DNA of 55,442 nucleotides from a virus: positions 1-55,442 of the IMG/VR virus record IMGVR_UViG_3300031566_000041; one strand, written 5' to 3'. This document shows, piece by piece, positions 429-34,224 of this stretch (position 1 is its first letter; every line of letters starts with the position of its first letter). Below the pieces are notes generated by a model. It saw nothing but the letters and a program-made list of their open reading frames with translations. It did no database searches and was not told the origin of the DNA. The position numbers were made by a program, and so were the translations under genes.

Positions 429-845
429 CTATTTTTCCGGGAAGGCGAATCTCTTCCGCTGTTCTTCCCATAGCAGGGGAATGCCCCGGTGCAGCTTGGC
501 CAGAGATAGGCCCGATGGTTCGTTGCCTCTTACGATGTCCTCGATGATGTCGGGGGCCAGATAGGACAGACGCAGAGTGCGGGCGAGGTAGGACTGATCG
601 AGGCCCAAGCGTTGAGCCAACTCCGAGATTGAAAGGACCGTTCCGGAATCGAGCAGGTCCTTCCAAAGGTGGGCCTTGGCCAGAGCGGTAAGGAGCGATT
701 CCTGCGCGTCCAGACGCTGGGCCGCGCTGGATTTCAACCCTTCTGGCACGATGATCTCCTTGCGGCCGCCGCGCCGCTTGAACTTCATCGGCACGTTGAT
801 GACCAGGCTGTTACCTTCAACTTCCAGCGTGGGCTTCATGTCCAT
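429..845 (-). CDS. Helix-turn-helix accessory protein of the serine-recombinase cassette
   Basis: This small protein of about 138 residues carries a central helix-turn-helix, around the segment SISELAQRLGLDQSYLARTL, in the style of ParB-like or KorB-like DNA-binding proteins. Proteins of this type are commonly encoded directly after large serine recombinases in DUF2924 cassettes. The chosen ATG at 845 has a strong ribosome-binding site, AAGGAGG, 8 bases upstream. An upstream in-frame ATG at 875 has no comparable site. The start lies inside the last codons of the recombinase gene, so the two are probably translationally coupled. A role in modulating recombination or autoregulating the operon is inference from position. 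Confidence 0.7.
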   Translation of the reverse strand: MDMKPTLEVEGNSLVINVPMKFKRRGGRKEIIVPEGLKSSAAQRLDAQESLLTALAKAHLWKDLLDSGTVLSISELAQRLGLDQSYLARTLRLSYLAPDIIEDIVRGNEPSGLSLAKLHRGIPLLWEEQRKRFAFPEK

Positions 846-2277
846 GCTCCAATCCTCCTTCGTGAATTCCCTCATCGTTTTTCATTTCCGCGATCAAGGT
901 CTGGAGGCCGTTGGCTCTGAACTTGATGTTGAGGTCGTCCTGGTAAACGGTGACGCGCTCAATCAGGAGATGCACGAGGCGGGCTTGCTCGGCCGGGAAG
1001 AGTTCGTCCCAAACCTGGTCCAGGTTATCGAAGGCCTCGATTACTTCGCGCTCGGTCAATTTTTCGGATTGGAGGGTTTGCAGTTCCAGATCAGCTTTGC
1101 CGGTCCTCAATCTTTCCATCTCGTCTGCTTCGATTTTTTTGGCGGCCTGGTAAGTTCGTTCGATAAGTTCCGGCGATGTAAAGACCGCCCGCAGTTGTCG
1201 CTTCACCACTTCCTCGATATCGCCCGCGGCCACGGTGCGGACCGGGCAGGTGTCGTAGCCCTTCTTGGTAGCGCCCACGCACACATAGTAACGGTAGACT
1301 TTCTTGCTGGGCTTGCGAGTGAAGGACATGGTCATGGCGTGGTCGCAGTGGCCGCACCGGATGATCCCCTTGAGGAGCGCGGGCGTCTTGGCCTTGGTAT
1401 GAGCGCCCCTCGCTGCGCAGTTCTGCTCCAGGATGCTGTGGGCCTTGCGCCAGAGGTCTCGACTGATGATCGCTTCGTGTTCGCCGGGGTAGTGGTTACC
1501 CTGGTGGACCACTTCTCCGAGGTAGAGATGATTGTGAAGCGTGCGGTAGATGTGGGTCTTGTTCCAGGGGCAGCCTTCGTGCGGATGGCCGGTCATGGTC
1601 ACGTAGGACTTGGTGGTGTGCCCCTGTTTATTCAGTTCCTTGGCGAGCAGAGTGGGCGAGCCGGTTTTTAGGAATAGCTTGAAGATGTAGCGAACCAGTT
1701 CCGCCTCCTTCTCGTTGATCACCAGCTTCTTGCTGGTACGATCCACGTCGTAGCCAAGCACTGGCGGGCCGCCCATGTACTTACCCTTGCGCTTGGACGC
1801 GGCGACCTTATCGCGGATGCGCTCGCCGATGATTTCGCGCTCGAACTGGGCGAAGGAGAGGAGGATGTTGAGGGTGAGCCGGCCCATCGAGGAGGTGGTG
1901 TTGAATTGCTGGGTCACTGAAACAAAGGAAACGCCGTGGCGCTCAAAGGTCTCGATGATCTTGGTAAAGTCCAGAAGCGACCGGCTCAAGCGGTCCACCT
2001 TGTAAACGACCACGCAGTCAATTTTTCCACGTTCAATGTCCTCGAGTAACCTCGCCAGCCCGGGCCGCTCCATGCTGCCGCCGGAGAAGCCGCCGTCATC
2101 GTAATGATCGGGAAGAGCTTTCCATCCCTCGTGGACCTGACTGGCGATGAAGGCCTCGGCGGCCTCGCGCTGAGAGTCGAGGCTGTTGAATTCCTGATCG
2201 AGACCTTCCTCGGTGGACTTGCGGGTGTAGATGGCGCAACGAATGAGCTTGACGGGTTGAGAATTCGATTTGTTCAT
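817..2277 (-). CDS. Large serine recombinase (site-specific integrase/resolvase family)
   Basis: The 486-residue protein has the resolvase catalytic domain at the N-terminus. The nucleophile is probably Ser21 in YTRKS, and further active-site arginines lie in the YKVDRLSRS segment. A recombinase domain spans roughly 165-280, followed by a zinc beta-ribbon starting with Cys308-x2-Cys311 and a later pair of cysteines. A charged C-terminal tail completes the usual length for large serine integrases (450-600 residues). The start codon overlaps the stop of the upstream DUF2924 gene in an ATGA junction. Large serine recombinases integrate and excise phages or cassettes without host factors. As the element also has a tyrosine integrase, which one mobilises the whole prophage is unclear. 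Confidence 0.93.
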   Translation of the reverse strand: MNKSNSQPVKLIRCAIYTRKSTEEGLDQEFNSLDSQREAAEAFIASQVHEGWKALPDHYDDGGFSGGSMERPGLARLLEDIERGKIDCVVVYKVDRLSRSLLDFTKIIETFERHGVSFVSVTQQFNTTSSMGRLTLNILLSFAQFEREIIGERIRDKVAASKRKGKYMGGPPVLGYDVDRTSKKLVINEKEAELVRYIFKLFLKTGSPTLLAKELNKQGHTTKSYVTMTGHPHEGCPWNKTHIYRTLHNHLYLGEVVHQGNHYPGEHEAIISRDLWRKAHSILEQNCAARGAHTKAKTPALLKGIIRCGHCDHAMTMSFTRKPSKKVYRYYVCVGATKKGYDTCPVRTVAAGDIEEVVKRQLRAVFTSPELIERTYQAAKKIEADEMERLRTGKADLELQTLQSEKLTEREVIEAFDNLDQVWDELFPAEQARLVHLLIERVTVYQDDLNIKFRANGLQTLIAEMKNDEGIHEGGLEHGHEAHAGS

Positions 2278-3218: not shown

Positions 3219-4004
3219 ATGGGACACATCAGGCTAGGGAACCTTCCTCGCACTCGGAAATGGCAACAGGTCGTTGCCCTTATAGAGGGCGGAGCGGGAA
3301 CAACCCAGATTGCTAACGCAACCATTACGGCAGCGGAGCAAGGGTTGAACTTAGCGGCCGAAGACAAGGGCCTGGTCGAAACCATCTGGCTTCTTACGCA
3401 ATTGCCCTTGGCCGCAAAGAGCAACAACTTTGCCGATGCTCTTCGAAATGCAGGTCTAGATGTTTCCGATTCTCCAACCCTGCTGGAGGTAGTCGGCGCG
3501 TTCTCTGATGCAGTCGACCACCGGCTGGCCAACAATGGCGGACGGACGGATCTGGGTGAGATGGCCCAGATGGCTGCGTCCGAAACGATGACGCAGTTGA
3601 TCGGGAGCCGGACACAGAATCTTTTCGGCACAACCCCAGACGACGTCAAGAGCGCCTTCTCCACCCTTGCCACAAACAAGCAGTTCAGCATCTTTGCCAG
3701 GGATTTTTTCGCCCGCCTGACAGACAAGTGTCTTGATTATTTTGTCAGCAGAGCCGTTGCTCACAATGTGGGGGAGGGCCGACGTTTTCGGACACTGGCC
3801 CAGCAGGGTGAATTCACCAAGGCTCTCGGGACCCATAGTTATGAGGCCTCGAGAATCGTCGAGGAGTTTTCCGGGGGCTGGTTCTCAAAGACCAACTGGG
3901 AGAATAAAGGCATATCGAGAAAGGATGCCGCCGGTTTCGCGCACGTTGCCATGAAGAAGATCGTGGCGGAACTCAAGGAAGGAGCGCAAACCGATGACAA
4001 ATGA
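3219..4004 (+). CDS. Uncharacterised partner protein (Met-Gly N-terminus) of the QueC-like enzyme
   Basis: This 261-residue, largely helical protein begins MGHIRLGNLPRTRKW. I recognise no enzyme motif or membrane segment. Its 3' end overlaps the next gene by 11 bp, so the two form a tight operon. Known QueC-like defence enzymes (for example QatC with QatB in the Qat system) act with a small partner protein encoded next to them. As I recall it, those enzymes modify the exposed N-terminal glycine of the partner after Met removal. The second residue here is Gly, consistent with such a role, but the sequence does not visibly match QatB. The ribosome-binding site is weak. Base composition is clearly AT-richer than the surrounding phage genes. 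Confidence 0.6.
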   Translation: MGHIRLGNLPRTRKWQQVVALIEGGAGTTQIANATITAAEQGLNLAAEDKGLVETIWLLTQLPLAAKSNNFADALRNAGLDVSDSPTLLEVVGAFSDAVDHRLANNGGRTDLGEMAQMAASETMTQLIGSRTQNLFGTTPDDVKSAFSTLATNKQFSIFARDFFARLTDKCLDYFVSRAVAHNVGEGRRFRTLAQQGEFTKALGTHSYEASRIVEEFSGGWFSKTNWENKGISRKDAAGFAHVAMKKIVAELKEGAQTDDK

Positions 4005-6084
4005 GCGCTCCATCCTCTGCGGTGATGTCACAACCGACTCATTACCATTTGACCGAAAGAAGCCGCTACGTCTACACCTGTGGGAACCCCACGAGAATAT
4101 ATCTCTGTGCATCAATGATATCCACAGCCAGCTTCTCAAGGACATCCCCTCCCAGTTCCACGATCTGGTCGAGATTGCGACATATGTTTATTGCGCAGAC
4201 CAAGCCATCACGAGAGGGGGCGATGGCGTGGATAACTTCGGTGAGAACTGGAGGCGTAGGTTATTTTTCAGAATACCAGTTCGAAATCCGGATTTATGGA
4301 ACTCCTCGCCGCTTAAGGATCAACTGATAGAGACTCTTAGCTTTCTGTCCGAGGATGAATACCATTTCGATTTTATGAAGCTCACGAAGCAACCCCCTAC
4401 TCAGAAACATCTCGAATTAGACGCTGCTCCGCCGGAAGAGGTTGTGTTGTTTTCTGGCGGACTGGATTCTTTAGGCGGAGCTATACAGGAAGCTGTCGTG
4501 AATCAACGTAAGATCGCGTTGGTCACCCACAAGTCGACACAAAAGCTGGCCAAGCGGCATCGAGTGCTGAAGGAACTCCTTGCGAAAAGCGCGTCACATG
4601 CCCCGTTCCATGTCGCGGTCATTATTAACAAGGACAAGTCTTTGGGGCAGGAATATACCCAGCGGAGTCGGTCGTTCCTGTATGCCGCACTTGGATCGAC
4701 GGTAGCCCAAATGTTCGGGCTTTCTCGAATCCGGTTCTACGAGAACGGTGTCGTCAGTTTCAACCTGCCTGTATCAGCGCAGGTCGTAGGCGCAAGAGCT
4801 ACGCGGACTACACATCCCCAGGTCATCAATGGTTTTGCCAAAATCATCTCGACTGTGGCCAGCAAGCCATTCACGATTGAGAACCCATTCCTCTGGAAGA
4901 CCAAGACAGAAGTCGTGAAGGGGATCGTCGATGCTGGTTGCGGGGAGACCATCAAATTCGCCACAAGTTGTACGCACACCTGGGAGATTACCAGACTCCA
5001 CACTCACTGTGGAACCTGCTCCCAGTGCATCGACCGCCGCTTTGCGGTATTGGCCGCCGGCGCTCAGGACCATGATCCGGCGGAAGCCTATGGCGTTGAT
5101 CTCCTGGTTGGCGAAAGGGCCGAGGGCGAATCGAAAACAATGCTGGCAGCCTACGTGGAAACGGCAAACGAGGTTGCGGACATGGCCCCCCTCAAATTCT
5201 TTGGACGGTATGGCGAAGCCGCACGAGTATTGAAACACCTCAATGGTTCAGCGGATTCAACCGCTCTTCAGCTTTTTGAAATGCACCAGCGCCATGCTAA
5301 ATATGTTACGAAGGTCGTTGAGGATGCGATTGCACAAAACAGCGCTGCGATTCGGAAGCGGGAACTGCCTGATAGTTGCCTCCTTCGGTTAGTGTGTGAC
5401 TCTAGTGGAATTGTCGCCGGGCAACCAGCCCCACCTTCATCAGCAATGGTCCCCTCGCCAAGTAATTACATCTGCCGAAAACAGCAATGCTGGGCAATCA
5501 GGTTTGGAGGAAATGAAGAAAAAATATATACACCAGAAATCGGCTTCTATCACTTGCAAATACTTCTTGAGAACCCAGGCACGTCATTTTCTGCATCGGA
5601 ACTCGATGTTGCAGTAAGACGGATGACAAAGAACGAACCTGTCGCCTCGGTATCCGCCACTGAAGATCAACCTGAAGATGGCTTCACGATTTTGGGACAG
5701 TCTGATTCCGGAGCAGTGCTCGATGACAAAGCCATCCAATCATATCGCACAAGGCTGGAAGAACTCGAGGGTGAGCTTAACGAGGCTCGATCCAACAATG
5801 ACCTCTCGAAGATTGAGTCGTTGGAAAACGACAAGGAATGGATCATTTCTGAACTCGGCAAAGCTCATGGGCTCGGAGGAAAGGTTCGGAAACTCGCGGA
5901 TGAACGGGACAAGGTTCGGAAACGTGTAAGCAATGCAATTACTCGTGCCCTAAAGAAAATAGATCAGTATGATAAGCCGCTCTCAGAACACCTAAAAGAA
6001 CCCGTCATAAACTTAGGCCATTCAATAAGTTATGTTCCTCGTGATGGTCTGACCTGGTCAACAACACCTACCTCAAATAACTGA
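3994..6084 (+). CDS. QueC-like PP-loop enzyme with C-terminal sensor/coiled-coil extension (defence candidate)
   Basis: The 696-residue protein has three parts. Residues 1-145 form an N-terminal domain with a conserved YCADQ and WRRRLFF segment. The QueC-like domain follows: its ATP-pyrophosphatase loop SGGLDS is at 154-159, and its zinc site is Cys326, Cys339, Cys342 and Cys345 (C-x12-C-x2-C-x2-C). Residues from about 488 carry a W-x-I-x-F ... IGFYHLQILLENPG module, then a coiled coil (about 575-640) and a terminal VRKRVSNAITRALKKI domain. QueC makes 7-cyano-7-deazaguanine and is about 230 residues. The extra domains and partner gene point instead to a QatC-like defence or protein-modifying enzyme. 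None of the Qat ATPase or TatD nuclease partners is present. The gene is AT-richer than its neighbours. Confidence 0.8.
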   Translation: MTNERSILCGDVTTDSLPFDRKKPLRLHLWEPHENISLCINDIHSQLLKDIPSQFHDLVEIATYVYCADQAITRGGDGVDNFGENWRRRLFFRIPVRNPDLWNSSPLKDQLIETLSFLSEDEYHFDFMKLTKQPPTQKHLELDAAPPEEVVLFSGGLDSLGGAIQEAVVNQRKIALVTHKSTQKLAKRHRVLKELLAKSASHAPFHVAVIINKDKSLGQEYTQRSRSFLYAALGSTVAQMFGLSRIRFYENGVVSFNLPVSAQVVGARATRTTHPQVINGFAKIISTVASKPFTIENPFLWKTKTEVVKGIVDAGCGETIKFATSCTHTWEITRLHTHCGTCSQCIDRRFAVLAAGAQDHDPAEAYGVDLLVGERAEGESKTMLAAYVETANEVADMAPLKFFGRYGEAARVLKHLNGSADSTALQLFEMHQRHAKYVTKVVEDAIAQNSAAIRKRELPDSCLLRLVCDSSGIVAGQPAPPSSAMVPSPSNYICRKQQCWAIRFGGNEEKIYTPEIGFYHLQILLENPGTSFSASELDVAVRRMTKNEPVASVSATEDQPEDGFTILGQSDSGAVLDDKAIQSYRTRLEELEGELNEARSNNDLSKIESLENDKEWIISELGKAHGLGGKVRKLADERDKVRKRVSNAITRALKKIDQYDKPLSEHLKEPVINLGHSISYVPRDGLTWSTTPTSNN

Positions 6085-20398: not shown

Positions 20399-21925
20399 AT
20401 GGCGGGCCTAAAACCCAGGGACCGCCGTCTGGCGGAAACGCTGATGAACCCGGTCCTGTGGGGCCAGGCTTACCTCAAGAACCGAGACGAGACGCCCCGG
20501 AGCTACTGGCCGCACCAGGCCGAGGACCTGCTCTGCGAGGTCAGGAACATCATCCACCTGGATGGCCGGGACGCGGGCAAGAGCGTGAACATCACCACCG
20601 ACGCGCTCCACTTCGCCTTCATCACCACCGGCGGCCAGGGCCTGATCGCCGCGCCTCACCAGGGCCATCTCGATACCCTGATCGAGGAGATCGAGTTCCA
20701 ACTGGAATCCAACCCGGACCTGATGGACAGCATCGCCATCAGCAAGTACGGCAAGCCCAAGATTCACCGCAAGCCCTACTTCCGGCTGGAGTTCGCCAAC
20801 GGCTCGATCCTTTACTTCCGACCGGCGGGGGCTTACGGCGACTCGTTCCGCTCGCTGCACGTGGACCGGGTCTGGGTTGACGAGGGCGCGTGGCTCTCCG
20901 AGAAAGCGTGGAAGGCCCTGCGCCAGTGCCTCAAGGCCAACGGCAAGCTGCGGATTTACTCGACTCCCAACGGTCTGCGCAACACCACCTATTACCGCCT
21001 CACATCCTCGGACCAGTTCAAGGTCTTCCGCTGGCCCTCGTGGTTGAATCCGGCTTGGAGCGAAGAGCGCGAGTCGGAGCTAATCGAATTCTATGGAGGC
21101 AAGGACACCGCGGGCTGGCAGCATGAGGTCGCGGGTGAACACGGCAAGCCCTCCTACGGCGCGTTCAACATCGAGTACCTGACCCTGTGCCGGCAGGAGC
21201 TATTGGAATACCAGAAGGTGGTGATTACTGGCGACGAGCTAAAGAACTGCGAGACCGAGGATGACTCCTGCGACCGGCTGGAGATGCTCCTCAATCTCAT
21301 GCCGCAGACCGGCACGTTCTGGATCGGCGGCGACCTGGGCTATACCAACGACCCCACCGAGCTCGTGGTCTTCCGGGAGAGCGAAGCCGGCGAGCGGTCG
21401 GTGCTGAAGCTCATTCTGCGCGTCCACATGGAGCACGTGACCTATCCTCACATCGCCCAGGCCATTGCTCTGCTCGAACGATACTTCTCGCCGGTCGGGA
21501 TCGGCGTGGACAACGGCGGCAACGGCCTGGCTGTGGTCCAGGAGCTATTGACGCTCGACAAGTACAAGCCGCTCCAGTTGGAGGGACGGTTGGCCGGGTA
21601 TGACTTCGGCGGAATGACGACCCTGGCGGTGCGGGACGGCCATGAGGTCAAGAAGCGGACCAAGGAGCTGATGACGAGCCTCATCAACGGCGCGCTCCAG
21701 AGGAAGCAACTCATCTTCCCAGCCGATGATATGGAGATCGAGGACCAGTTCACCACGCACACCTACACACTGCGGGACGGCAAGGTGATCTACGGGAAGG
21801 GCAACGACCACATCGTTGACGCGGTGCGTTGCGCCATACTCGCCCGCGAGCAGGGCAACTTGAACGGGGCCGGCCAGGAGACGGTCCACTTGGTGCCGCT
21901 GATGACGGAGCCGGTGTTTATTTAG
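20399..21925 (+). CDS. terL: Terminase large subunit
   Basis: This 508-residue protein has Walker A in HLDGRDAGKS near residue 58, Walker B VWVDEG and a coupling YSTPNG segment. The C-terminal RNase-H-like nuclease carries acidic motifs GGDLGYTNDP, GVDNGG and HIVDAVRCA. It is the ATP-driven motor that packages DNA and cuts the concatemer, docking on the portal encoded next. The ATG at 20399 follows GGGGAGATGGGG. The small-terminase candidate is separated from it by the divergent integrase operon, which is unusual and may reflect insertion of the integrase block. Confidence 0.93.
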   Translation: MAGLKPRDRRLAETLMNPVLWGQAYLKNRDETPRSYWPHQAEDLLCEVRNIIHLDGRDAGKSVNITTDALHFAFITTGGQGLIAAPHQGHLDTLIEEIEFQLESNPDLMDSIAISKYGKPKIHRKPYFRLEFANGSILYFRPAGAYGDSFRSLHVDRVWVDEGAWLSEKAWKALRQCLKANGKLRIYSTPNGLRNTTYYRLTSSDQFKVFRWPSWLNPAWSEERESELIEFYGGKDTAGWQHEVAGEHGKPSYGAFNIEYLTLCRQELLEYQKVVITGDELKNCETEDDSCDRLEMLLNLMPQTGTFWIGGDLGYTNDPTELVVFRESEAGERSVLKLILRVHMEHVTYPHIAQAIALLERYFSPVGIGVDNGGNGLAVVQELLTLDKYKPLQLEGRLAGYDFGGMTTLAVRDGHEVKKRTKELMTSLINGALQRKQLIFPADDMEIEDQFTTHTYTLRDGKVIYGKGNDHIVDAVRCAILAREQGNLNGAGQETVHLVPLMTEPVFI

Positions 21926-22042: not shown

Positions 22043-23539
22043 GTGGAAGGGAAAGGACAAATCACGAACGAAGACCTCCTGGCGCAGGGGGTGATTATCG
22101 CGCCGCTGGCATCGGCTGCGGCCCTGGACCCGGCGGTGTTCGCCAAGGTCTCGGCGAACGAGGCCATTCCCGTGACCTGGGAAGACCGGGCGCGGAGGGC
22201 CTGGGAGTATTACGTTGAGGAGCCGCTGGTCAAAAACTGCGTGAACTCCTGGCGAACCTTCGCCGTGGGCGACGAGATTAAAGTCGCCAGCGATGACGCG
22301 GGCGTGAAGGAGGCCGCCAGCGAACTGGCTTACAAGATTAGCGTCTCGGCCTTCGTGAAGGCCATGATCCTGCAACTGCTGGTCAAGGGCGACGCCATCG
22401 GGTTCAAGGGCTACACCAAGGACGGCAAGGACATCGAGGAGGTCGTGTGCGTGAACCCGATCTCGGTCAAGGTCCGGTACGAGAACGGCGAACTGGTCGA
22501 GGCCAAGCAATACCCCGAGGACGCGCCGAGCGCGGGAGACGCCCTGAATCTGCCGGTCAAACAGGTGCTCCACCTCAAATGGGACGCCCCGCCCTTCTCG
22601 CCGCGCGGCAACTCACTGGTGCTCCCCGCGTTCCAGTCCATCGAACTCCTGCGCGACTATCGCCGGGCCGAACAAGCCATTGCCAAGCGCTGGGCCACTC
22701 CCTTCCGGCTGCTCAAGGTCGGCGGCGCTTATGGCCAGAAAATGGTCATGCCCGACCAGACCATGCTGGAGCAGGTCCGGGATATGGTGAACAAGATGGA
22801 CCTGAAGAGCGGGCTGGTGGTCCCATTCTACGTCACGGTCGAGACCCACGGGACCGAAGGCCAAGTCCTCAACGTCGAGGACAAGGTCAAGGAGGTCAAG
22901 GAAGACATCATGGTCGCGCTCGGGCTGTCGCGCACGCTCATCACGGGCGACGGCCCCAACTTCGCCACGGCCTCGGTGAGCCTGCAGAAGATGCTGGTCA
23001 TGATCCGGGAGATCAAGCAGGCCGCCCGCGACATCCTGGCCTGGGTCTTTGACGACTGGATGGAACTCAAGGGGCATAAGGACAAGACCCTCCAGTTTCT
23101 GTTCAACGATCTTGACCCCAGCGACGCGGTGGACGTGAAGCGCCTGCTCATCGAACTCTATGACCGCAAGCTCATCAGCCGGGCGAGCCTGCAGCTGAAG
23201 ATGGACCTCGACCCGGACATCGAGGCGGCCAATAGGGAGAGCGAGAAGAAGTCGGTGGACCTGCTGGATGAGAAGCAGATCAAGCCCATCGTGGACATGG
23301 TCATGGCCGGGATCATGGGCGTGGAGGTCGCGCAGAAGATGCTCGGCCTGGACCCGGCGGCGAACAAGGCGAGCGCATCGGTGGAGGCCGACTATGCCCG
23401 GGCAATCGGTGACGAGGTCTGCGACTCGTGCGCTCACTTCGACGAGGAGAAGAACCATTGCCGGGCGCGGAAATCCGAGACAACTTTTTCTTCACCAGCC
23501 TGCCGCTTCTTCGACGCCCGCATTGCCCCGGCAAGCTGA
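22043..23539 (+). CDS. Portal protein with an extra C-terminal cysteine cluster
   Basis: The 498-residue portal-like protein starts at GTG with GAGGT upstream. The order WEDRARRAWEYYVEEPLVKN, LLVKGDAIGFKGY, VLHLKWD and ITGDGPNFATASVSLQKM is typical of portal proteins, and a MuF-type minor head gene follows, the usual neighbour. Portals form the twelve-fold ring at the capsid vertex through which DNA enters. The last 40 residues carry Cys460-x2-Cys463-x9-Cys473-x13-Cys487 (CDSCAHF ... ACRFFDA), a metal- or Fe-S-binding pattern not part of standard portals. Confidence 0.88.
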   Translation: MEGKGQITNEDLLAQGVIIAPLASAAALDPAVFAKVSANEAIPVTWEDRARRAWEYYVEEPLVKNCVNSWRTFAVGDEIKVASDDAGVKEAASELAYKISVSAFVKAMILQLLVKGDAIGFKGYTKDGKDIEEVVCVNPISVKVRYENGELVEAKQYPEDAPSAGDALNLPVKQVLHLKWDAPPFSPRGNSLVLPAFQSIELLRDYRRAEQAIAKRWATPFRLLKVGGAYGQKMVMPDQTMLEQVRDMVNKMDLKSGLVVPFYVTVETHGTEGQVLNVEDKVKEVKEDIMVALGLSRTLITGDGPNFATASVSLQKMLVMIREIKQAARDILAWVFDDWMELKGHKDKTLQFLFNDLDPSDAVDVKRLLIELYDRKLISRASLQLKMDLDPDIEAANRESEKKSVDLLDEKQIKPIVDMVMAGIMGVEVAQKMLGLDPAANKASASVEADYARAIGDEVCDSCAHFDEEKNHCRARKSETTFSSPACRFFDARIAPAS

Positions 23540-26500: not shown

Positions 26501-28138
26501 AAGCTTGGCTGGCAGGGCAAGGTCCTGCCCTTTGACGAGGATGACATCGAGGACCAGAACGCGCTCATCTTCGTGGAGACGGCCAAGGGCAAAGAGCGGA
26601 CGGTCATCAAAATGAAGGTCCGGCCCGAGGCCGACGCGAAAATCCTGGAGGCGCTTAAAAAAGCCGGGATTGATCCCGCCTCGGCCAAGGTGGGCGACAC
26701 TCTGTCCGAGGACCAGTTCGCGGACGACATCCTGGCTGCGGCCAAGACCATCAACCACCACAAGGACGACAAGAAGTACAACCAGGACAAGTTGAAAAAG
26801 GCCAAGGGGCACGAGAAGGCTCTCCAGAAGTTGGCCAAGTCCAGCGACCCGGACGTGCAGGGCATGGCCAACGAGTACCTGGCTTGGCTCGCCAGGATCG
26901 AGGAGGCGGAAAGCGCGAAGAAGCCGATCAAGGACATGTTCGGGGCTTACACGAAGAAGCACGCATCCCCTCGCCCGGAGAAGTCTAAGGACGTGGGCTT
27001 CAAGGTTACCCGCTCGAAGGTGCTGCACGAGAAACGCGAACTGAAGAATGGCGACCTGGTCGTGGTGAAGGAAGACGCAGATAACTCGGCCATGTTCAAG
27101 GGCCACAGTTTAAAGGCAGGAGAGCAATTCGAGGTGGAATTCGGTGATGGTGTAAGGGCCGTGTACCGCCCCTGGTCGGAGAAGAATCTCTATGCCCAGC
27201 GCGGCGAGTTCGAGATGGTGCTGCCGGATAAACCGGACGCCAAGAGCATCGAGCGGGCAATGGGGCACATGGAAACCCTGGGCCTCAAGTCCACCGCCGC
27301 GACTGCCGAGGACTCGGAACTGCTCTACCTCCATAAGCAAGCTTACCTCTCCAAGGCGGAAAAAGAGTCCGCCTACAAGAAGATGATCGCGGACCTTGAC
27401 CGGCGCTCGGCCAGCAAGGAGGTCCGCGTCCGGGAGATGCGGGCCTTCTGGGAGAAGCGGCTGGGCGCAAAGGACCTGACCCGTATGCCGGGCTACGATC
27501 CCATTGGCGAGTATCAGCTGGCGTTCAAGCAACCGGGCCAGGGCGCGGGCTATCGGCATCAGTACCGGTTCGACCTCTCGGACGAGGACCTGGAGAAGGA
27601 GATGAAGGGCTACGCGCTCCATCACCACCTCACCAACGGTGAGAGCGTGTCCTCGTTCATTGAAAAGGTGGTCGAGCAAAACGGCGCGGCGGTGAGCACC
27701 ATCGAGAAGCTGCGGGCCGGGGTCCCGGTGGGCGGCATGTCGCCGGAGGAGGACATGAAAACCGGCGGCGCGAGCTACTTCTTCACGCGAATCAAGAAGG
27801 TCCCGGACAAAGGCCCGGACGAGACCGGGCTGTACTTCAAGAAGCGGCTCCTGCGCCGAATGGACGCTATCAGCTACGACCACGACGCTTATGGCAAGGT
27901 GGTGGACGATTACGTGACGCAGCATCGCGGCAGCACGCCCGAGGACTGGAAGAAATTCGCTCGCAAGAGTGGAAACGAGACCATCTTCAAATACTCGGTG
28001 ACAGTACTGGACAACATCGAGGTCATCGTGGCCGGAAGCCAGAACGAGCGGAAGAAGATCTTGGAGTCCTTCCGCAAGAAGGGCATCGTGAAACTTCCCG
28101 ACGGCCGCAAGGTCGAGGACATTGTGATTGCGAGGTGA
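23552..28138 (+). CDS. Giant MuF-type minor head protein with HeH repeats, kinase-like domain and C-terminal domain (polyvalent or toxin-like)
   Basis: The 1528-residue protein starts at GTG (CGGAG 8 bases upstream). Residues about 130-290 are the Mu F/SPP1 gp7 minor-head domain (LIARTEVLRAHNQGR, CPVCGPLDGK, HPNCRC). Five helix-extension-helix or SAP-like repeats follow (about 337-630), each pairing LKxLAK-type helices with a TKxxxIKLL helix. After a Pro-rich linker (660-687) comes a kinase-like domain with Lys738 (WLFKP), an H-D-x-H-x-K loop at 823-828 (SNHDGHSKQFL) and Asp842 (GIDKG), in the style of HipA or PI-kinase-like folds. The C-terminal 170 residues (GMSPEEDMKTGGASYFFTR onward) form an unassigned domain. 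Known MuF proteins are about 300-500 residues. Multi-domain versions are called polyvalent or polymorphic-toxin MuF proteins. Confidence 0.85.
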   Translation: MLSALAIKTPLTQAEAIRQATARSVKARNLYTEQVASDLSGILADAEDEVRKVILHYKTLGSLPDNKLAAVQGLKKLEADLQQITSTLRKEQTLRFKKATKASFRQGIYRGIDEFASAQLPFYRDLKPEGIDKLSTKVFTLVDTDALDFMANYNLVLAGDVNRELADGIKRVVFSGVATGKGVEDIVRDLGHVVKDPESFRHAGSKVFSKAQYRMELIARTEVLRAHNQGRIKFHKHVGVKKLEWMTMDDERVCPVCGPLDGKVFLIDRFPQQPAHPNCRCTNIVAWPINICGSELIAVAADEPAACIIPPEGIEGQALAKAREDSKLKAAFEKGEIGDLQALTAKQLQTLAKQNGVSIARTKADFIKLLDQAEPGIEHGDLSGQALQAKIKEYKIGLLRTKEDLVKLLAEKQAALKQAQQITDQLKKVPAPGGLQGLSVNDLKDIAKDKGVSLNMTKQDVIELLDEIEPGVDHSGLQGQDLIAAKEKHSIGPLKNKQQLVKAIEKSAGQDLAEKTKQEALDSAQKEKVKKAKETIEQAASKVIVPKSPAGYNDFLAAAKEAESALAQGAGLPQEMLESNAKELALKKKLFQDQVAAMKSGDLKTLAKDTKLKHWQWANKDEMVTLFTETDPAKVEAAKASIEAKHGAWAEKHGGKKAPTAPSPPVKTRPAPAPSPPEPSPPEPPVFTKKGSEFEDADQAWEKKGKPGNFKPAGKAEVGGAHTKEFWVDESGAKWLFKPIEKSGDEFIAQGEEAAYQIGRLIDPDAVEVRTINLNGKLGSIQKWHTDLQAKGDFSDVDPTQLTTTELEQIQREHVVDWLVSNHDGHSKQFLRARSGKVYGIDKGQLFKHLGEDKLSIDYHPNGKFGEQEPYYNTVFRAVKQGKVKADPSVTLRYIREVEKIADDDYLALLKPYADGRFGKNEAKKKAFLDLALERKRNLRRDFEGFYADVLGKKGFRFEDAAAALPKKGRLGPAEEKLIEEVRKLGWQGKVLPFDEDDIEDQNALIFVETAKGKERTVIKMKVRPEADAKILEALKKAGIDPASAKVGDTLSEDQFADDILAAAKTINHHKDDKKYNQDKLKKAKGHEKALQKLAKSSDPDVQGMANEYLAWLARIEEAESAKKPIKDMFGAYTKKHASPRPEKSKDVGFKVTRSKVLHEKRELKNGDLVVVKEDADNSAMFKGHSLKAGEQFEVEFGDGVRAVYRPWSEKNLYAQRGEFEMVLPDKPDAKSIERAMGHMETLGLKSTAATAEDSELLYLHKQAYLSKAEKESAYKKMIADLDRRSASKEVRVREMRAFWEKRLGAKDLTRMPGYDPIGEYQLAFKQPGQGAGYRHQYRFDLSDEDLEKEMKGYALHHHLTNGESVSSFIEKVVEQNGAAVSTIEKLRAGVPVGGMSPEEDMKTGGASYFFTRIKKVPDKGPDETGLYFKKRLLRRMDAISYDHDAYGKVVDDYVTQHRGSTPEDWKKFARKSGNETIFKYSVTVLDNIEVIVAGSQNERKKILESFRKKGIVKLPDGRKVEDIVIAR

Positions 28139-28140
28139 GC

Positions 28141-28611
28141 ATGAAGGAGTTCATCGAAAAGGAGAAGGAGCGGCTGCAGGCGCTGTTCTCGGAGTTCAAC
28201 CGGCAAGGCTCGTGGATCGAGATGAGGGAGCGTGGCGAGAAGCCGATCCGCCTGGGCCTGGTGGACAGCTACACGGTCACCCGAGTGGCCCCGCAGTTCA
28301 ACGCTGCGGGCGAGATGACCCATGCGGACTTCTGGCTCCTGTTCAAGATGGCGGGCTACGACCAGGGCTTCCAGTTCTCGCACACCATCAAGGTTTGCCG
28401 GTGGGAGCAGGACGACACCTATCTCATTGACCTCGACGATGACCGGGAACGGCGCTTCCACGCGGAGTTGATCATGGAGGTGTCGGAGCCGGGGATGGTT
28501 GAGGATTGGAAGGCCTGGCAAAAATACAAGGCCGAGAACCGCGAGCGTTTCGACATCGCGGACCAGGACATTCTGGCCGAACACATCCGGATCGCGGAGG
28601 AGTGGGAATGA
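28141..28611 (+). CDS. Unknown protein encoded directly after the MuF giant (immunity candidate)
   Basis: The product of about 156 residues (or 158 from an overlapping GTG at 28135) has no recognised domain. It is acidic and mixed alpha/beta (LVDSYTVTRVAPQFNAAGEM, DTYLIDLDDDRERRFHAELI). The start overlaps or abuts the stop of the MuF gene, so it is translationally coupled, as immunity genes are to polymorphic toxins. It could equally be a head accessory protein. It overlaps the next gene by ATGA. Confidence 0.6.
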   Translation: MKEFIEKEKERLQALFSEFNRQGSWIEMRERGEKPIRLGLVDSYTVTRVAPQFNAAGEMTHADFWLLFKMAGYDQGFQFSHTIKVCRWEQDDTYLIDLDDDRERRFHAELIMEVSEPGMVEDWKAWQKYKAENRERFDIADQDILAEHIRIAEEWE

Positions 28612-29066: not shown

Positions 29067-32000
29067 ATGGAGCTTTTTGCTACTGATTACGAACGGTTGG
29101 CGTTTCTGCTGGAGACCGACGCGGCCTTGGAGTTGGACTTCGAGGCGCTGGAGGCTTATGCGCGTGAAGAAAGTCAACCCGAACTTCCCCCGGATAAGCG
29201 CCCCAAGTACATCACCAACTACATCGGCTCGAAGCAGAAGCTGGTGGACTGGATTTGGAAGCATACCCCGGAGGGCGTGGAGTCGGCGCTGGACGCCTTC
29301 TCCGGCTCGGCGGTCGTGGCCTACATGTACAAGACCAAGGGCCTCAAGGTCATGGCCAACGACCGGCTGCGCTATTGCTACCACGCGGCGCGGGCGATCA
29401 TCGAGAACGACAAGGTCCGGCTCTCGGACGACGAGCTTACGGCGCTGCTTGCGGACAACCCCAAGGCCGGGACGTTCGTCCGGGACAATTTCAAGGGCAT
29501 ATTCTTCGCCAAGGGCGTCCACGGCCTGATTGATAACATCAGGGCCAACGCGGACAAGCTCGATGGCTTCAAGAAGGACATCGCGCTCTTCGCTCTGGGC
29601 AAGACCTGCATGTCGGGCAAGGGCGGATTCGGGCATTTCTCGTCGTCCACGCGCTACGGCAAGCGCGAGGATACGCCCGAGGAGTTCAAGGAGCGGTTCA
29701 GCAAGAACGTGGCGCGGATTAACGCGCTGGTGTTCGACAACGGTGAGGAGTGCAAGGCGTTTCGGAAGGACGTGAACGAACTCCTGCCGAGCATCAAAGG
29801 CGACCTAGTTTACTTCGACCCGCCTTACGCGACCGAATTCTCCACCACCAACTATGAGAAATCCTACCACTTTGTCGAGGGCCTGATGAACTATTGGGAG
29901 GGCCTCACCCTGGTCAAGGACTCGAAGACCAAGCATTACGAGACCGACCACAAGACGGTGACCAAGGCCAACGCCAATGAGTTCTTCGAGACCTTCCTGG
30001 GCAACGCGAAGCACATCCCGCACTGGTTGATCTCTTACCGGGATCACGCCTACCCGAACGAGCATGACATGAAGAAGATTATCGGCTCGCTCGGCCGCGA
30101 GTCGGCCATGCGTTCGCACGACCACCATTACTCGATCACCTCGCAGCACGGTGACGCCTCGCACGCCAAGGAGCGGCTGTTCATCTGCAAGCGGGGCAAG
30201 GAAGAACAGAAGGCCGCGGCCTCGCTGGAGGCTTATGCAGAGGACGAGTTGCAGACCCAGGCAATCTGGGACGAGACCCCGAATGAAATCCGCTTCCGCG
30301 TGCGTGACCCGGAGGAGTTCGAGAAGGGCAGCTTCCGGCGGAAGGGGCTGGAGGGGGTCGAGGGCGTCGCCATCATCATGGGCCGGCTCAAGAAAGAACA
30401 CGTCCAGGAGGGGCACGACCCCAAGGCGATGGTCCTTCAGGCCTACCGCTTCGCCAAGAAGACCGAGGACAACCCGAACGGCTGGACCCTGGACAAGGCC
30501 AAGGAGTGGGTGAAGAAGCACGAGTCGGAGAGCGCAGCGGAGGCGGCCCTACGGATCGAGGACAACATGCAGGCCCTGGCCGACGCGCCGCTGGGTGAAG
30601 CTCTCGATCTGCTCACCTGCCAGGCAGGGCAAAACGATCCGGTCCGGGTCACCGGGTACATGGGTAGCAAGTACCTGATGATGGGCTGGATTGAGCGGCA
30701 CGTGCCCAAGGGCGCGAAGACCATCCTGGACGCCTTTTCCGGCGGTGCGAACGTGGCCTATAACTTCAAGCGCAAGGGCTACAAGGTCATGGCCAACGAC
30801 CTGCTCCGGTATCCTTATCACCTGGCCCGCGCGGTGGTCGAGAACTCGCACGACAAGCTCAGCGATGAGGACATCGAGATGCTGCTCGCTCCCAACCCGG
30901 GGGCGGGCACGTTCATCCTGGACCACTTCCACGGCTACTACTACACCAAGCCCATTCTGCAATGGCTTGACCAGGTGTGGTCGAACATCCAGAAGCTCTC
31001 GGGCTACAAGAAGGACTTGGCGCTCGCCGCGTTGGGCACCGCAGTCAAGGCCAAGAGCGCGTTCGGCCAGTTCTCGCGCTCGAAGATGACGAAGCGGGCC
31101 GGCCACGAAGTGCACCAGCCCACAGACGTGGACGAGACACAGGCCAGCGCAAGCCTTAAGGAATCGCAGCTGGTCAACCTGCCGCTCTCTCGGCTGGTTG
31201 AATCCTTCAAGCGCTCGATCAAGCAACTCAACAACCTGGTGTTTGACAACGGCCAGGAGTGCAAGGCCTTCAATTTGAACGCGGTGGAAGCGATCCGGCG
31301 CTTCAGCGCGGACGCGCTTTACCTCGACCCGCCTTACGTCACCGAGTTCGGCATCAACGACTACGAAGACTCGCTCCACTTCGTGGAAGGGTTGATGACC
31401 CGCTGGGCCGACAAAAAGCTCAACGCCAACCCCCGGCGCAACTACCCGTCCCGCACCCGTTTTAATAAGGAATCAATCCGCAAGCTGATGGAGACGATGG
31501 CGGCGGACGCCCGGGGCAAGTACGGCACGGTGCTGCTCTCCTACCGGGACCGGGCCTTCCCCCGCGAGAACGAGATCAAGGAAATCCTCGGCGACCACTT
31601 CGGCCAGGTCCAGGTGAGCGGCATGGACGTGGTCTACACCATTGCCAAGAACATTGGGCGGGAAGGCCAGTATGCGAAGGAGCTTCTGTTCGTGGCCTCG
31701 AAGGCGAGAAGCGCGGCCCGGTCCAAGGGGTCGCTATCGGCGGCCGCGTGCCACACCTCGGTCCCGGTGGATATCCAGGTCAATGCATCAGAGGGCATGT
31801 TCACCGAGGCGCTCGATCTTTCCAAGCAGGCCGGAGACCCGCAGTTCACCTTCATTCTCTGCCGGGTCGGGACCAACAAGAACGGGGACCATTTCACTGC
31901 CGAGGAACTGGCCGCACGGTACATGACGGCGGTTAACAAGAAGATTGACCTCAAGCACTCGCAGGACTTCACCGACATCGTGGGCGGGATCGTGGCCGCC

Positions 32001-32969
32001 GATTACCTGGAGGACGAGAACGGCGGCCGGGTGGAGTGCGTGGGCGAGCTTTACGCCACGGACAGCCAGAACGCGCAGCTGGCTTACAAGCTGATGAAGC
32101 GCGGGATCATCACCCAGGTTTCGATGGAGTGCGATTACGATGAAGGCGAGTGCTCGATCTGCGGGAAAAAGGTGAAGAACAAGAGCGACTACTGCGTTCA
32201 CCTGCGCAAGTACAAGGGCGGCTCATTCCAGGGCAAGCCGGTGTTCGAGATTCTACGTGGAGTCACCTTCACCGGCCTCGGGCTTTTAGACCGCAAGGGT
32301 GCGGACGAGAACGCGAGGATAACCCAGGTTGCGGCGGTTGCTGAAACGGAAATTTCAAACCAGGACAAAGGAGGTCCACACATGGACGAGAACGAGAAGC
32401 AGGAAGAGAGGGCGGCCGAAGCCGCCAAGAAGAAAAAGGACGACGGCGAGGCCGGCGCTCCGGCGGACGACAAGACCCGGATCAAGGAGTTGGAGAAGGA
32501 GAACGCGGACCTGAAGAAACAGGTCTCCACCCTCCAGAAGCGGGTCGAGGAATTGGAGGCCGAGCAGCAGGCCGCGTCCAACCGCTCGCGGGCGCAAAAG
32601 CTCCTGCGCAAGATCGAGAAGCAGGGCATGGCGTTCGAGACGGACGAGGACCGCGAGGCCGAGTTCAAGCGGCTGGCCTTGATGTCGGACGAGGCGTTTG
32701 CCGCGACCGAGGCGGCCTACGAGCGGATGATCAAGGCCAGGTCCGAAGGCGTGAAGAAGGAGGACAAGGCCGAGCCTCCCCCGAAGAAGGAGCAGTCCAA
32801 AGCGGACAAGGCGGACGAGGAACCGGCCATGCGCAGCGACGCCGGGGTGCGGCCCAAGGACGTGGACGACCACAAGGCGACCCTGGAAGACAAGCTGAAG
32901 GCCGGGTTCATGGTCGCCTATCGGCACAGGGTAGCCACGGCAACCGGCGAGCGGGCCGAGGCCAATTAA
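29067..32969 (+). CDS. Fusion of two D12-class adenine methyltransferases with capsid maturation protease and scaffold
   Basis: This is a 1300-residue protein. Residues about 47-375 and 530-890 are two D12-class (Dam-like) N6-adenine methyltransferases, each with an AdoMet-binding DAFSGSAV or DAFSGGAN motif and catalytic DPPY (251-254 and 754-757). Between them lies a phage-type linker (FRVRDPEEFEKGSF ... AKEWVKKH). Residues about 915-1090 are a prohead protease with likely His964 (DLKHSQD), Ser1019 (ITQVSMEC) and a Cys1029-x2-Cys1032 zinc knuckle (CSICGKKVKNKSDYC). The rest is a charged coiled-coil scaffold with its own internal start. Prohead proteases normally stand alone or are fused only to scaffold. 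The methyltransferase load is exceptional. Confidence 0.88.
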   Translation: MELFATDYERLAFLLETDAALELDFEALEAYAREESQPELPPDKRPKYITNYIGSKQKLVDWIWKHTPEGVESALDAFSGSAVVAYMYKTKGLKVMANDRLRYCYHAARAIIENDKVRLSDDELTALLADNPKAGTFVRDNFKGIFFAKGVHGLIDNIRANADKLDGFKKDIALFALGKTCMSGKGGFGHFSSSTRYGKREDTPEEFKERFSKNVARINALVFDNGEECKAFRKDVNELLPSIKGDLVYFDPPYATEFSTTNYEKSYHFVEGLMNYWEGLTLVKDSKTKHYETDHKTVTKANANEFFETFLGNAKHIPHWLISYRDHAYPNEHDMKKIIGSLGRESAMRSHDHHYSITSQHGDASHAKERLFICKRGKEEQKAAASLEAYAEDELQTQAIWDETPNEIRFRVRDPEEFEKGSFRRKGLEGVEGVAIIMGRLKKEHVQEGHDPKAMVLQAYRFAKKTEDNPNGWTLDKAKEWVKKHESESAAEAALRIEDNMQALADAPLGEALDLLTCQAGQNDPVRVTGYMGSKYLMMGWIERHVPKGAKTILDAFSGGANVAYNFKRKGYKVMANDLLRYPYHLARAVVENSHDKLSDEDIEMLLAPNPGAGTFILDHFHGYYYTKPILQWLDQVWSNIQKLSGYKKDLALAALGTAVKAKSAFGQFSRSKMTKRAGHEVHQPTDVDETQASASLKESQLVNLPLSRLVESFKRSIKQLNNLVFDNGQECKAFNLNAVEAIRRFSADALYLDPPYVTEFGINDYEDSLHFVEGLMTRWADKKLNANPRRNYPSRTRFNKESIRKLMETMAADARGKYGTVLLSYRDRAFPRENEIKEILGDHFGQVQVSGMDVVYTIAKNIGREGQYAKELLFVASKARSAARSKGSLSAAACHTSVPVDIQVNASEGMFTEALDLSKQAGDPQFTFILCRVGTNKNGDHFTAEELAARYMTAVNKKIDLKHSQDFTDIVGGIVAADYLEDENGGRVECVGELYATDSQNAQLAYKLMKRGIITQVSMECDYDEGECSICGKKVKNKSDYCVHLRKYKGGSFQGKPVFEILRGVTFTGLGLLDRKGADENARITQVAAVAETEISNQDKGGPHMDENEKQEERAAEAAKKKKDDGEAGAPADDKTRIKELEKENADLKKQVSTLQKRVEELEAEQQAASNRSRAQKLLRKIEKQGMAFETDEDREAEFKRLALMSDEAFAATEAAYERMIKARSEGVKKEDKAEPPPKKEQSKADKADEEPAMRSDAGVRPKDVDDHKATLEDKLKAGFMVAYRHRVATATGERAEAN
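32382..32969 (+). CDS. Nested in-frame scaffolding protein (internal start)
   Basis: An internal in-frame ATG at 32382 (codon 1106 of the fusion) is preceded by a near-perfect ribosome-binding site, AAAGGAGGT, 7 bases upstream. The 195-residue product begins MDENEKQEERAAEAAKKKKD. It contains a heptad coiled coil (IKELEKENADLKKQVSTLQK) and a charged tail. This is the arrangement of lambda C and Nu3, in which scaffold is made in excess from inside the protease gene. Confidence 0.75.
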   Translation: MDENEKQEERAAEAAKKKKDDGEAGAPADDKTRIKELEKENADLKKQVSTLQKRVEELEAEQQAASNRSRAQKLLRKIEKQGMAFETDEDREAEFKRLALMSDEAFAATEAAYERMIKARSEGVKKEDKAEPPPKKEQSKADKADEEPAMRSDAGVRPKDVDDHKATLEDKLKAGFMVAYRHRVATATGERAEAN

Positions 32970-32984: not shown

Positions 32985-33347
32985 ATGAGTTTCATCAATC
33001 CCAATCATCGGGGCCTCGCCTACGGCGACGGCTACATGCAGGGCGCGGGAAGCAAGGGCAAGGTGGTGAAGATCGCGGGCAGCGATTTGTTCGCGGTGAA
33101 CACCGACCCGACCGTGAAGTCCTTCGGGATACTCATCAAGGACTACAAGGACGGCGAGATGCCGGGCATCTACTGCATGGGCGGAGTTTACGAGACCGAC
33201 GTGTTCGAGGGGACCATCGTCCCCGGCAATGACCTCAAGGTGTCGGCCAACGGCAAGCTCATCGCGGGCGTGCTCGCTGGCGAGGAGGTCATCGCCCGGG
33301 CCATCGCTCTCTCGGGCGGCGTGCTCAAGTTCAAGCTGCTGATCTAA
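32985..33347 (+). CDS. Putative capsid decoration (head stabilising) protein
   Basis: This is a 120-residue Gly-rich beta protein (GLAYGDGYMQGAGSKGKVVK, LKVSANGKLIAGVLAGEEVI) located between the scaffold/protease gene and the major capsid gene. That is the usual slot for decoration proteins such as lambda gpD or DUF2190-type cement proteins. No membrane segment is present. A strong GGAGGAG site precedes the ATG. Confidence 0.65.
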   Translation: MSFINPNHRGLAYGDGYMQGAGSKGKVVKIAGSDLFAVNTDPTVKSFGILIKDYKDGEMPGIYCMGGVYETDVFEGTIVPGNDLKVSANGKLIAGVLAGEEVIARAIALSGGVLKFKLLI

Positions 33348-33360
33348 GGAGGAAGCGAAT

Positions 33361-34224
33361 ATGGAGATGAATCAAATGAACGTGCACAGCCAGGAGTACA
33401 TGCAGAGCATGGCCCGGCTCATGAGCGAGGCGCTGGAGTCGCCGGAGGGACTGCATGCGCTGGCCGCCGCCATCGCCGCGCCCATCGAGCAGGAGATCAA
33501 GCGCAAGGAGATTTCCTCGCTCCTGCTCACGAGCCACACCCTGCCCAAGGGCGAGCGGCCGATCTACCAGAAGAAGCCGCGCGTGAAGGCCTACTGGATC
33601 AGCAAGGAGGGCGAGGCTCAAGAGAGCGAACTCGGCCAAGACGAGATCGAGTTCCCCACGCACCGCATCCACTCCGCGCCGATGGTCGACATCGCGGTCT
33701 TGAAGAACGGCAACATCGGGACGCTCACCGACATGCAGACCGCTGCCGCCGACGAGATCAGGAAGGAGATCGACAAGCGCACCCTCACCGTGATCACGGC
33801 GTCTGTCCCGGCGGAGAACACGGTCGAGGTCACGGGCGACACGCTCACCGAGGAGGCGCTCAACGAGGCCGTCTCGATCATCGAGGACCTGGAGCTTTCG
33901 GTGAAGTACATCGTGATGCGGGGCCGGCGCTTCAACGACATGCGCGGCTGGGACTTGGACCCGCAGACCAAGCTCGAACTGCGCGCCAAGGGCGTGATCA
34001 AGAACTACGGCACCGGCGGCATCTTGCTCACCGCGTCCGCGCCGCTGAACGAAATCCTGATCATCCCGGACGAGGAGATCGGCAAGCTGCCGGTGCGCGA
34101 GACGCTCAAGACCGAGTCCATCGAGCAGAAGACGAAGTTCAAGACCGGCTGGCTGATTTGGTCGGAGCAGGGCCAGGGCATCACCCGGCCGGAAATCCTG
34201 GCCAAGATCAAGCTGCTCGGATAA
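33361..34224 (+). CDS. Major capsid protein
   Basis: This 287-residue protein is in the capsid position directly after the decoration candidate. A helical N-terminal arm (about 1-60) is followed by the HK97-like P-domain and A-domain features (SIIEDLELSVKYIVMRGRRF, LIWSEQGQGITRPEILAKI). It would assemble the capsid shell after scaffold removal by the upstream protease. The assignment relies on gene order, length and compositional pattern. Confidence 0.78.
   Translation: MEMNQMNVHSQEYMQSMARLMSEALESPEGLHALAAAIAAPIEQEIKRKEISSLLLTSHTLPKGERPIYQKKPRVKAYWISKEGEAQESELGQDEIEFPTHRIHSAPMVDIAVLKNGNIGTLTDMQTAAADEIRKEIDKRTLTVITASVPAENTVEVTGDTLTEEALNEAVSIIEDLELSVKYIVMRGRRFNDMRGWDLDPQTKLELRAKGVIKNYGTGGILLTASAPLNEILIIPDEEIGKLPVRETLKTESIEQKTKFKTGWLIWSEQGQGITRPEILAKIKLLG

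Follow-up and report, generated by a model that had tools for sequence, protein, structure and literature searches.

In phage lambda (C/Nu3) and in herpesviruses (UL26/UL26.5), the gene for a capsid protease continues in frame into a scaffold, which a nested start allows to be translated on its own as well; through this shared scaffold the protease enters the procapsid. We analyzed a gene with a related layout in the IMG/VR virus record IMGVR_UViG_3300031566_000041, all 55,442 bases of which make up the window studied here. Its 1300-residue product combines two DNA adenine methyltransferases (MTases), MT1 and MT2, with a prohead protease domain and a C-terminal scaffold. Like lambda gpC/Nu3 and herpesvirus UL26/UL26.5, the fusion has a protease followed by an in-frame scaffold with a predicted nested start. 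It differs from them in that, here and in relatives, one or two DNA MTases precede the protease, and from lambda C also in that the protease fold resembles T4 gp21 and the assemblins, whereas lambda C is of the S49 type. The arrangement suggests that the full-length protein co-assembles with the scaffold and that the MTases are probably carried into the forming particle on it.

Phage P1 provides a second point of comparison. DarB is located in the P1 head, and its first 30 N-terminal residues are enough for it to be packaged (PMC9024508); the action of Dar is confined to packaged DNA, in cis (PMC12707154), and DarA is cleaved by the P1 prohead protease (PMC12810830). DarB is a head-carried DNA adenine MTase thought to protect the DNA that it accompanies, and we propose the same role for the fusion. 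However, DarB stands by itself as a 250-kDa protein that also has a helicase and an N-terminal packaging signal of its own, whereas here the MTases are part of the protease-scaffold protein. A Pfam scan of the fusion found no helicase domain and thus no DarB-type pairing of MTase and SWI2/SNF2 helicase, indicating that it is not a DarB family member.

Other described proteins share parts of the design. For the protease of phage SPN3US, a C-terminal propeptide has been suggested as the signal that directs the enzyme into the prohead (PMC7411985). T4 gp21 and phage G gp19 share their fold, catalytic His and Ser, and gene position with the fusion protease; gp19 has the zinc-knuckle pattern as well, but is a 300-amino-acid (aa) stand-alone protein without an MTase. 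Polyvalent proteins are multidomain proteins that join a head component to conflict enzymes (Iyer et al. 2017, PMC5512222), a description that the MuF-type neighbor of the fusion gene also fits. The carriers described in that work are MuF and portal proteins, together with DarB-type dyads; because "prohead protease" appears only in its reference list, a protease carrier seems to be undescribed there. Type IIS tandem MTases of the AlwI/FokI kind have, as here, two D12-class domains per chain, and MT1 and MT2 are related to their C-terminal half; by contrast, the tandem in the fusion has a separate duplication origin and no recognized adjacent endonuclease. We found no description of the fusion in the literature searched, whose coverage leaves out subscription papers and preprints.

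A single intact gene encodes the fusion

The original prediction, made from the letters of the window, described this gene as a capsid protease fused to two adenine MTases and named a frameshift or sequencing error joining separate genes as one of the findings that could overturn it. An artefact of this kind is ruled out: positions 29067-32969 translate as one stop-free frame of 1300 residues, relatives 55-74% identical over the full length share that frame, which excludes a frameshift or assembly join, and guanine-plus-cytosine content by codon position is even across the whole open reading frame (ORF). The motifs were all located as predicted, with DPPY at residues 251 and 754, DAFSG at 76 and 555, His964 (in LKHSQD), Ser1019 (in VSMEC), a Cys/His knuckle at 1029-1045 and then a coiled-coil region. 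The same fusion, for which homologues were to be checked, is present in about 55 non-redundant relatives. PHROG 27806, which matches residues 523-1297 (1374 bits for the entire protein), already contains such fusions under the label "DNA methyltransferase".

MT1 and MT2 are related D12-class enzymes under constraint

Judged by profile, S-adenosylmethionine (AdoMet) motif and DPPY, MT1 and MT2 are D12-class N6-adenine DNA methyltransferases. Pfam MethyltransfD12 matched in 3 stretches (7.8e-48), and a Foldseek search with the MTase model matched E. coli Dam (8e-6) and Mcbe1 (1e-6). DPPY is invariant in both domains (44/44 for MT1 and 29/29 for MT2), and motif I and the YIGSK-type segment are conserved. 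Median ratios of non-synonymous to synonymous substitution (dN/dS) were 0.043 for MT1, 0.061 for MT2, 0.044 for the protease and 0.094 for the scaffold, indicating that both MTases are about as constrained as the protease.

The tandem had been described as divergent, a view that can be refined. The two MTases are paralogues that are 39% identical, and the tandem is not obligatory, since many relatives have MT1 only. In a maximum-likelihood tree, to be read with some caution because of its long branches, MT1 and MT2 form one clade (95/100) within which MT2 is monophyletic (100/99). This clade adjoins the C-terminal halves of free-standing tandem MTases, while the N-terminal halves lie far off. 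The single MT1/MT2 clade and the distance of the N-terminal halves of type IIS enzymes, like the monophyly of MT2 and the many relatives with MT1 only, point to a duplication inside this phage lineage as the most likely origin of MT2. The nearest free-standing relatives compared were the C-terminal halves of 606-634-aa tandem MTases; two of these tandems adjoin AlwI-family endonucleases on Geobacillus plasmids and one adjoins a type IIS endonuclease in Erysipelothrix phage phi1605. A single-domain relative is found on a Rhodococcus plasmid.

Two further segments flank MT1. The N-terminal leader has a motif, FATDxxRLxFLLExDAxL, that is kept in most of the relatives listed and altered in a few (L115, L174), and free-standing MTases align with the fusion only from about residue 37-52 onward. 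The leader could be a targeting or propeptide segment; a role like that of the DarB signal is a guess by analogy. The linker domain that follows MT1 (LK, residues 399-482) is absent in relatives L010-L013 and lies directly before the protease in L098 and L142. It had no match in Pfam, PHROGs or phage records.

The protease domain resembles T4 gp21 and herpesvirus assemblins

The assignment of residues 926-1087 to the prohead proteases is based on modeled fold, motif and gene position. At the level of sequence, phrog_18299 ("head maturation protease") covers residues 950-1051, and a search of the PDB with the whole protein returned nothing. An AlphaFold model of residues 880-1300 (421 residues) was confident across the protease (block predicted local distance difference test (pLDDT) scores mostly 83-98) and the coiled coil. 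VIA-align ranked T4 gp21 (5jbl) at the top, with a Z of 11.4 and a root-mean-square deviation of 2.4 A over 125 residues, followed by many herpesvirus assemblins or proteases at Z 7-10.6; unrelated chains were below 7 (about 6.5). Foldseek with the 421-residue model reached herpesvirus proteases only at E 3e-3, the likeness being made clear by VIA-align, and its best match among predicted viral structures was phage G gp19 (1.1e-17).

The catalytic His and the Ser of VSM[E/G]C are invariant in 63 of 63 sequences, among them phage G gp19 and Finch gp17, and the zinc-knuckle residues are likewise invariant with phage G and Finch included. Several acidic residues are also conserved. Distant relatives of the domain, such as Rhodococcus phage E3 gp77 and Gordonia phage Stormageddon gp13, are annotated as prohead or capsid maturation proteases. 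Distances between protease domains co-vary with those between MT1 domains (Mantel r 0.77). A tree of the protease alone gave 5-6 gains or losses of MT2 by parsimony, only 1 of them forced, and has too few columns to count these events or to place L170, a relative described below.

The scaffold has a predicted start of its own

The junction between protease and scaffold in the window, AAAGGAGGTCCACACATG, has a Shine-Dalgarno (SD) sequence ahead of an in-frame ATG at 32382 (Met1106). A strong SD (AGGAG or GGAGG) with an in-frame start occurs at this junction in 42 of 50 non-redundant relatives (33 ATG, 5 GTG and 4 TTG); elsewhere in the same genes, 44 of 1963 in-frame start-type codons (2.2%) have a strong SD ahead of them. 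TTG accounts for only 10% of the Leu codons in these genes. Because the scan accepts any start codon in a stretch of about 78 codons, which amounts to some three candidates per gene, a fair chance level is nearer 7%, still far under the 84% found; for a few divergent members (L036, L167) the scan may have settled on a chance match. The same scan found a start before the protease in 9 of 43 genes, where the sites were scattered, not conserved and in several cases looked like KELLF codons at the end of the MTase, and a start before MT2 in only 5 of 23, which is not comparable to the scaffold site.

A nested scaffold start in the absence of a conserved protease start suggests that the scaffold is produced in free form too, whereas the protease probably always comes with an MTase attached. 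The nested start at this junction is a new observation, and by analogy the layout is that of lambda C/Nu3 and herpesvirus UL26/UL26.5. In the model, the scaffold forms helices at model residues 255-306, 314-325, 329-354 and 394-414, and a C-terminal motif, DVDDxxxSLEDxLxxGFMAAYxxR, is conserved among relatives.

The fusion recurs in a large group of tailed phages

A whole-protein search gave 42 viral loci. Searching with the protease domain alone confirmed 101 stretches, from which the 80 best loci were taken forward, and gave 53 loci in GTDB genomes, including the complete genomes of Desulfosarcina alkanivorans, D. widdelii and Sulfidibacter corallicola. The fusion is found in IMG/VR contigs and in prophages of Desulfosarcina, Desulfobulbus, Ectothiorhodospira, Acidobacteriota and others. 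It occurs in a single form (one MTase, protease and scaffold), mostly of about 710-820 residues and up to about 1020 with extra inserts, and in a tandem form (two MTases) of about 1160-1370 residues. After removal of close copies there were 28 tandem and 19 single forms and 8 loci in which MT2 was visible but the upstream part incomplete or broken; another 3 had no MTase, and a further 3 were truncated where the contig ended. Where the N-terminus was complete, nearly all relatives carried the fusion. It was not found in any of 50,697 phage records, where proteases (phage G, Finch) and an MTase matched only as separate proteins. The fusion-bearing tailed phages are a large and so far unrecognized group.

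The sole clean case without an MTase is L170, a Sulfidibacter prophage in which the MuF frame ends ~20 bases before a 425-codon protease-scaffold frame. The other two are L142, which looks rearranged beside a primase-like gene, and L155, a contig fragment. In this protease-based search for other cargo in place of the MTase, L170, with no cargo, was the only clean case. The S. corallicola chromosome carries a single-MTase fusion (L176) in addition to the bare protease-scaffold of L170, which makes the two a natural comparison pair. Similarly, the D. alkanivorans chromosome has two prophage regions (L128 and L147), one with a tandem and one with a single MTase. A prophage of Desulfobulbus rhabdoformis has the single form.

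Several relatives have unusual structures. L104 and L106 lie on one 133-kb viral contig as two whole copies of the fusion region about 88 kb apart, possibly representing two phages or prophages. L110 is split over several frames and has its MT2 motif changed to DPSY, and L100 has a single in-frame stop between the halves; both look like decaying prophages or sequence errors. L035, L041 and L174/L175 have a further domain (an AYHLPxRK... region) inserted between MTase and protease, whose relatives in phage records are a Thermus phage head maturation protease and Streptomyces phage capsid maturation protease/MuF fusions.

Head genes surround the fusion gene

The fusion gene lies in a head-gene cluster (Table 1), and the order portal-MuF-fusion-major capsid protein is retained in relatives. 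In phage G, the stand-alone protease gp19 sits between the portal gene and the decoration and capsid genes. No restriction endonuclease was recognized beside the fusion gene: the recognizable neighbors are head genes, and the 158-aa and 120-aa neighbors were unmatched.

Table 1 Features of the fusion gene and its neighborhood in the window
Feature	Position	Strand	Basis or remark
Terminase large subunit	20399..21925	+	phrog_2 1.8e-31
Portal protein	22043..23539	+	phrog_2739 2.1e-59
MuF-type minor head protein, 1528 aa	23552..28138	+	Pfam Phage_Mu_F 4.8e-17; TIGR01641
158-aa protein between MuF and fusion	28135..28611	+	no family match (PHROG, Pfam)
Whole fusion protein, 1300 aa	29067..32969	+	single open frame, MTase 1 - linker domain - MTase 2 - prohead protease - scaffold; same architecture in relatives
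N-terminal leader, residues 1-45	29067..29201	+	MELFATDxERLAFLLExDAAL...; precedes MTase 1
MTase 1 (MT1), residues 46-378, D12-class N6-adenine DNA methyltransferase by profile	29202..30200	+	Pfam MethyltransfD12
Linker domain LK, residues 399-482, between the two MTases	30261..30512	+	mobile among relatives
MTase 2 (MT2), residues 523-888, MT1 paralogue	30633..31730	+	DPPY, tree clade
MT2-protease linker, residues 889-925, candidate cut region	31731..31841	+	low-confidence, mostly disordered in model
Prohead protease domain, residues 926-1087 (His964, Ser1019, zinc knuckle)	31842..32327	+	fold, motifs, gene position
Shine-Dalgarno AGGAGG within coding frame	32369..32374	+	7 nt before ATG 32382
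Predicted nested scaffold ORF, 195 aa (residues 1106-1300), coiled coil and C-terminal helix	32382..32969	+	internal start; model helices
Small protein (120 aa) in decoration-protein place	32985..33347	+	no family match (PHROG, Pfam); role suggested by position and phage G gp26
HK97-fold major capsid protein	33361..34224	+	NF042927 4.5e-82; phrog_2522

The MuF protein of the window also has weak matches to SAP/Rho_N-like domains and to the HipA_C / SCO1664 family. In relatives this kinase-like part is in the same protein as MuF, in a separate frame (L028, L031, L036) or undetected (L033, L170). It is possibly a second head-borne cargo. Elsewhere in the window, positions 3219-6084 hold two adjoining genes for a 261-aa protein without a clear match and a 696-aa protein with a QueC-like domain. 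The latter matches PADLOC QatC at 1e-49; other Qat genes were not recognized nearby. The two genes lie close to a serine recombinase-like gene (817-2277, minus strand) and are a possible unlisted defense pair on a temperate phage.

A model for scaffold-borne methyltransferases

We propose that a protease-scaffold gene of the layout seen in lambda C/Nu3 and herpesvirus UL26/UL26.5 gained one or two adenine-DNA MTases at its N-terminus. Two products would result: the nested start would yield the 195-aa scaffold in many copies, and the whole frame would yield the full-length protein in smaller number. Through the C-terminal scaffold that both share, the full-length protein would co-assemble into the procapsid with its MTases inside. 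The protease would cut the scaffold and its own linkers, the disordered stretch at residues 889-925 being a candidate, and so free the MTase within the head, where it would modify phage DNA on packaging or from where it would enter the next cell with the DNA, giving protection from restriction in the manner of DarB. Taken as a whole, this explanation, in which scaffold-borne MTases enter the procapsid, are cut loose and serve as a virion-borne anti-restriction function, is the best that we can offer and one that we hold with moderate confidence. Its first step is the firmest: a real protease, MTases under selection and a C-terminal scaffold with its own start make carriage into the procapsid very likely. 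Less likely than not, in our estimate, is the idea that the MTases stay in the capsid and methylate DNA during packaging or ejection, which would provide each particle with cis protection independent of the modification of the producing cell.

A similar scheme had been put forward in the original prediction, in which the MTases were carried into the head and released by the protease. The capsid protease, the selected MTases and the scaffold, which also has its own start, support the first part of this, carriage into the procapsid; no cut site could be identified. The linkers were compared by eye, and although EAxDL-like stretches recur before MT2 and before the protease, no significance was established for them and we claim no cut site there. 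The MT2-protease linker has pLDDT under 50 at model residues 1-27 and 30-38.

Several points weigh against the model as a whole. With no cut site found, the MTases could be removed or expelled before packaging. The existence of a prophage, L170, with a protease-scaffold and no MTase suggests that the cargo may be dispensable for assembly. The Pfam Peptidase_S78 match is weak and sub-threshold (E 0.11), and L038, L120-L122, L169, L175 and others are without a strong nested SD (only 42 of 50 have it). Finally, for no member of the group did we find proteomics, methylome or infection data.

The fusion might instead do no more than couple expression. The MTase would then be an ordinary late phage enzyme, cleaved from the protease in the cytoplasm or just as assembly begins, that methylates replicating DNA before packaging, like an orphan phage Dam. 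Such an enzyme would have identical catalytic motifs and be under the same purifying selection, the disordered linker before the protease could be cut early, and phage-encoded methyltransferases are common (PMC7824862). However, a separate gene would suffice for this purpose, yet about 55 non-redundant relatives retain the fusion. Moreover, because the scaffold has its own predicted start and the protease has none, all of the protease is tied to an MTase. Prohead proteases are normally active only inside the prohead, as established for T4 and HK97, which argues against release in the cytoplasm. We judge a late enzyme of this type rather unlikely.

Two further readings concern the MTases themselves. 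Their folds could contribute to assembly structurally or by binding DNA, for instance by keeping it close to the portal, with catalysis incidental, and both their place inside a head-assembly protein and their varying copy number (one or two among relatives) would fit. By contrast, the invariant DPPY, the conserved AdoMet motif and a dN/dS as low as that of the protease speak for catalysis, and L170 would assemble a head without any MTase, if the prophage is active; we therefore regard a structural role as very improbable. Alternatively, the tandem could be a captured modification enzyme of the FokI/AlwI type that acts on the two strands of one asymmetric site, an idea encouraged by the free-standing tandems beside the AlwI-family endonucleases and beside the type IIS enzyme of phi1605. 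The joint clade of MT1 and MT2 (95/100), the distant N-terminal halves and the many relatives with MT1 only argue instead for duplication inside the lineage. Capture from a type IIS system was rejected as the origin on the basis of the tree and is kept as an analogy only; it has hardly any probability in our estimate. By convergence, the two enzymes could still have come to serve two sites or two strands.

Significance

For the databases, the label "DNA methyltransferase" of PHROG 27806 is corrected here: about half of the protein is prohead protease and scaffold. The group is widespread, in sulfate reducers and many uncultured phyla, and as some of its prophages reside in hosts that can be cultured (Desulfosarcina, Desulfobulbus, Ectothiorhodospira), the proposed loading of MTases into heads can be tested directly. 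Capsid proteases and scaffolds are normally seen as tools that are used and discarded; in these phages the protease itself carries a DNA-modifying enzyme. The fusion would be a natural model for the loading of capsid cargo, a one-gene route for bringing enzymes into heads that could explain how anti-restriction enzymes are packaged.

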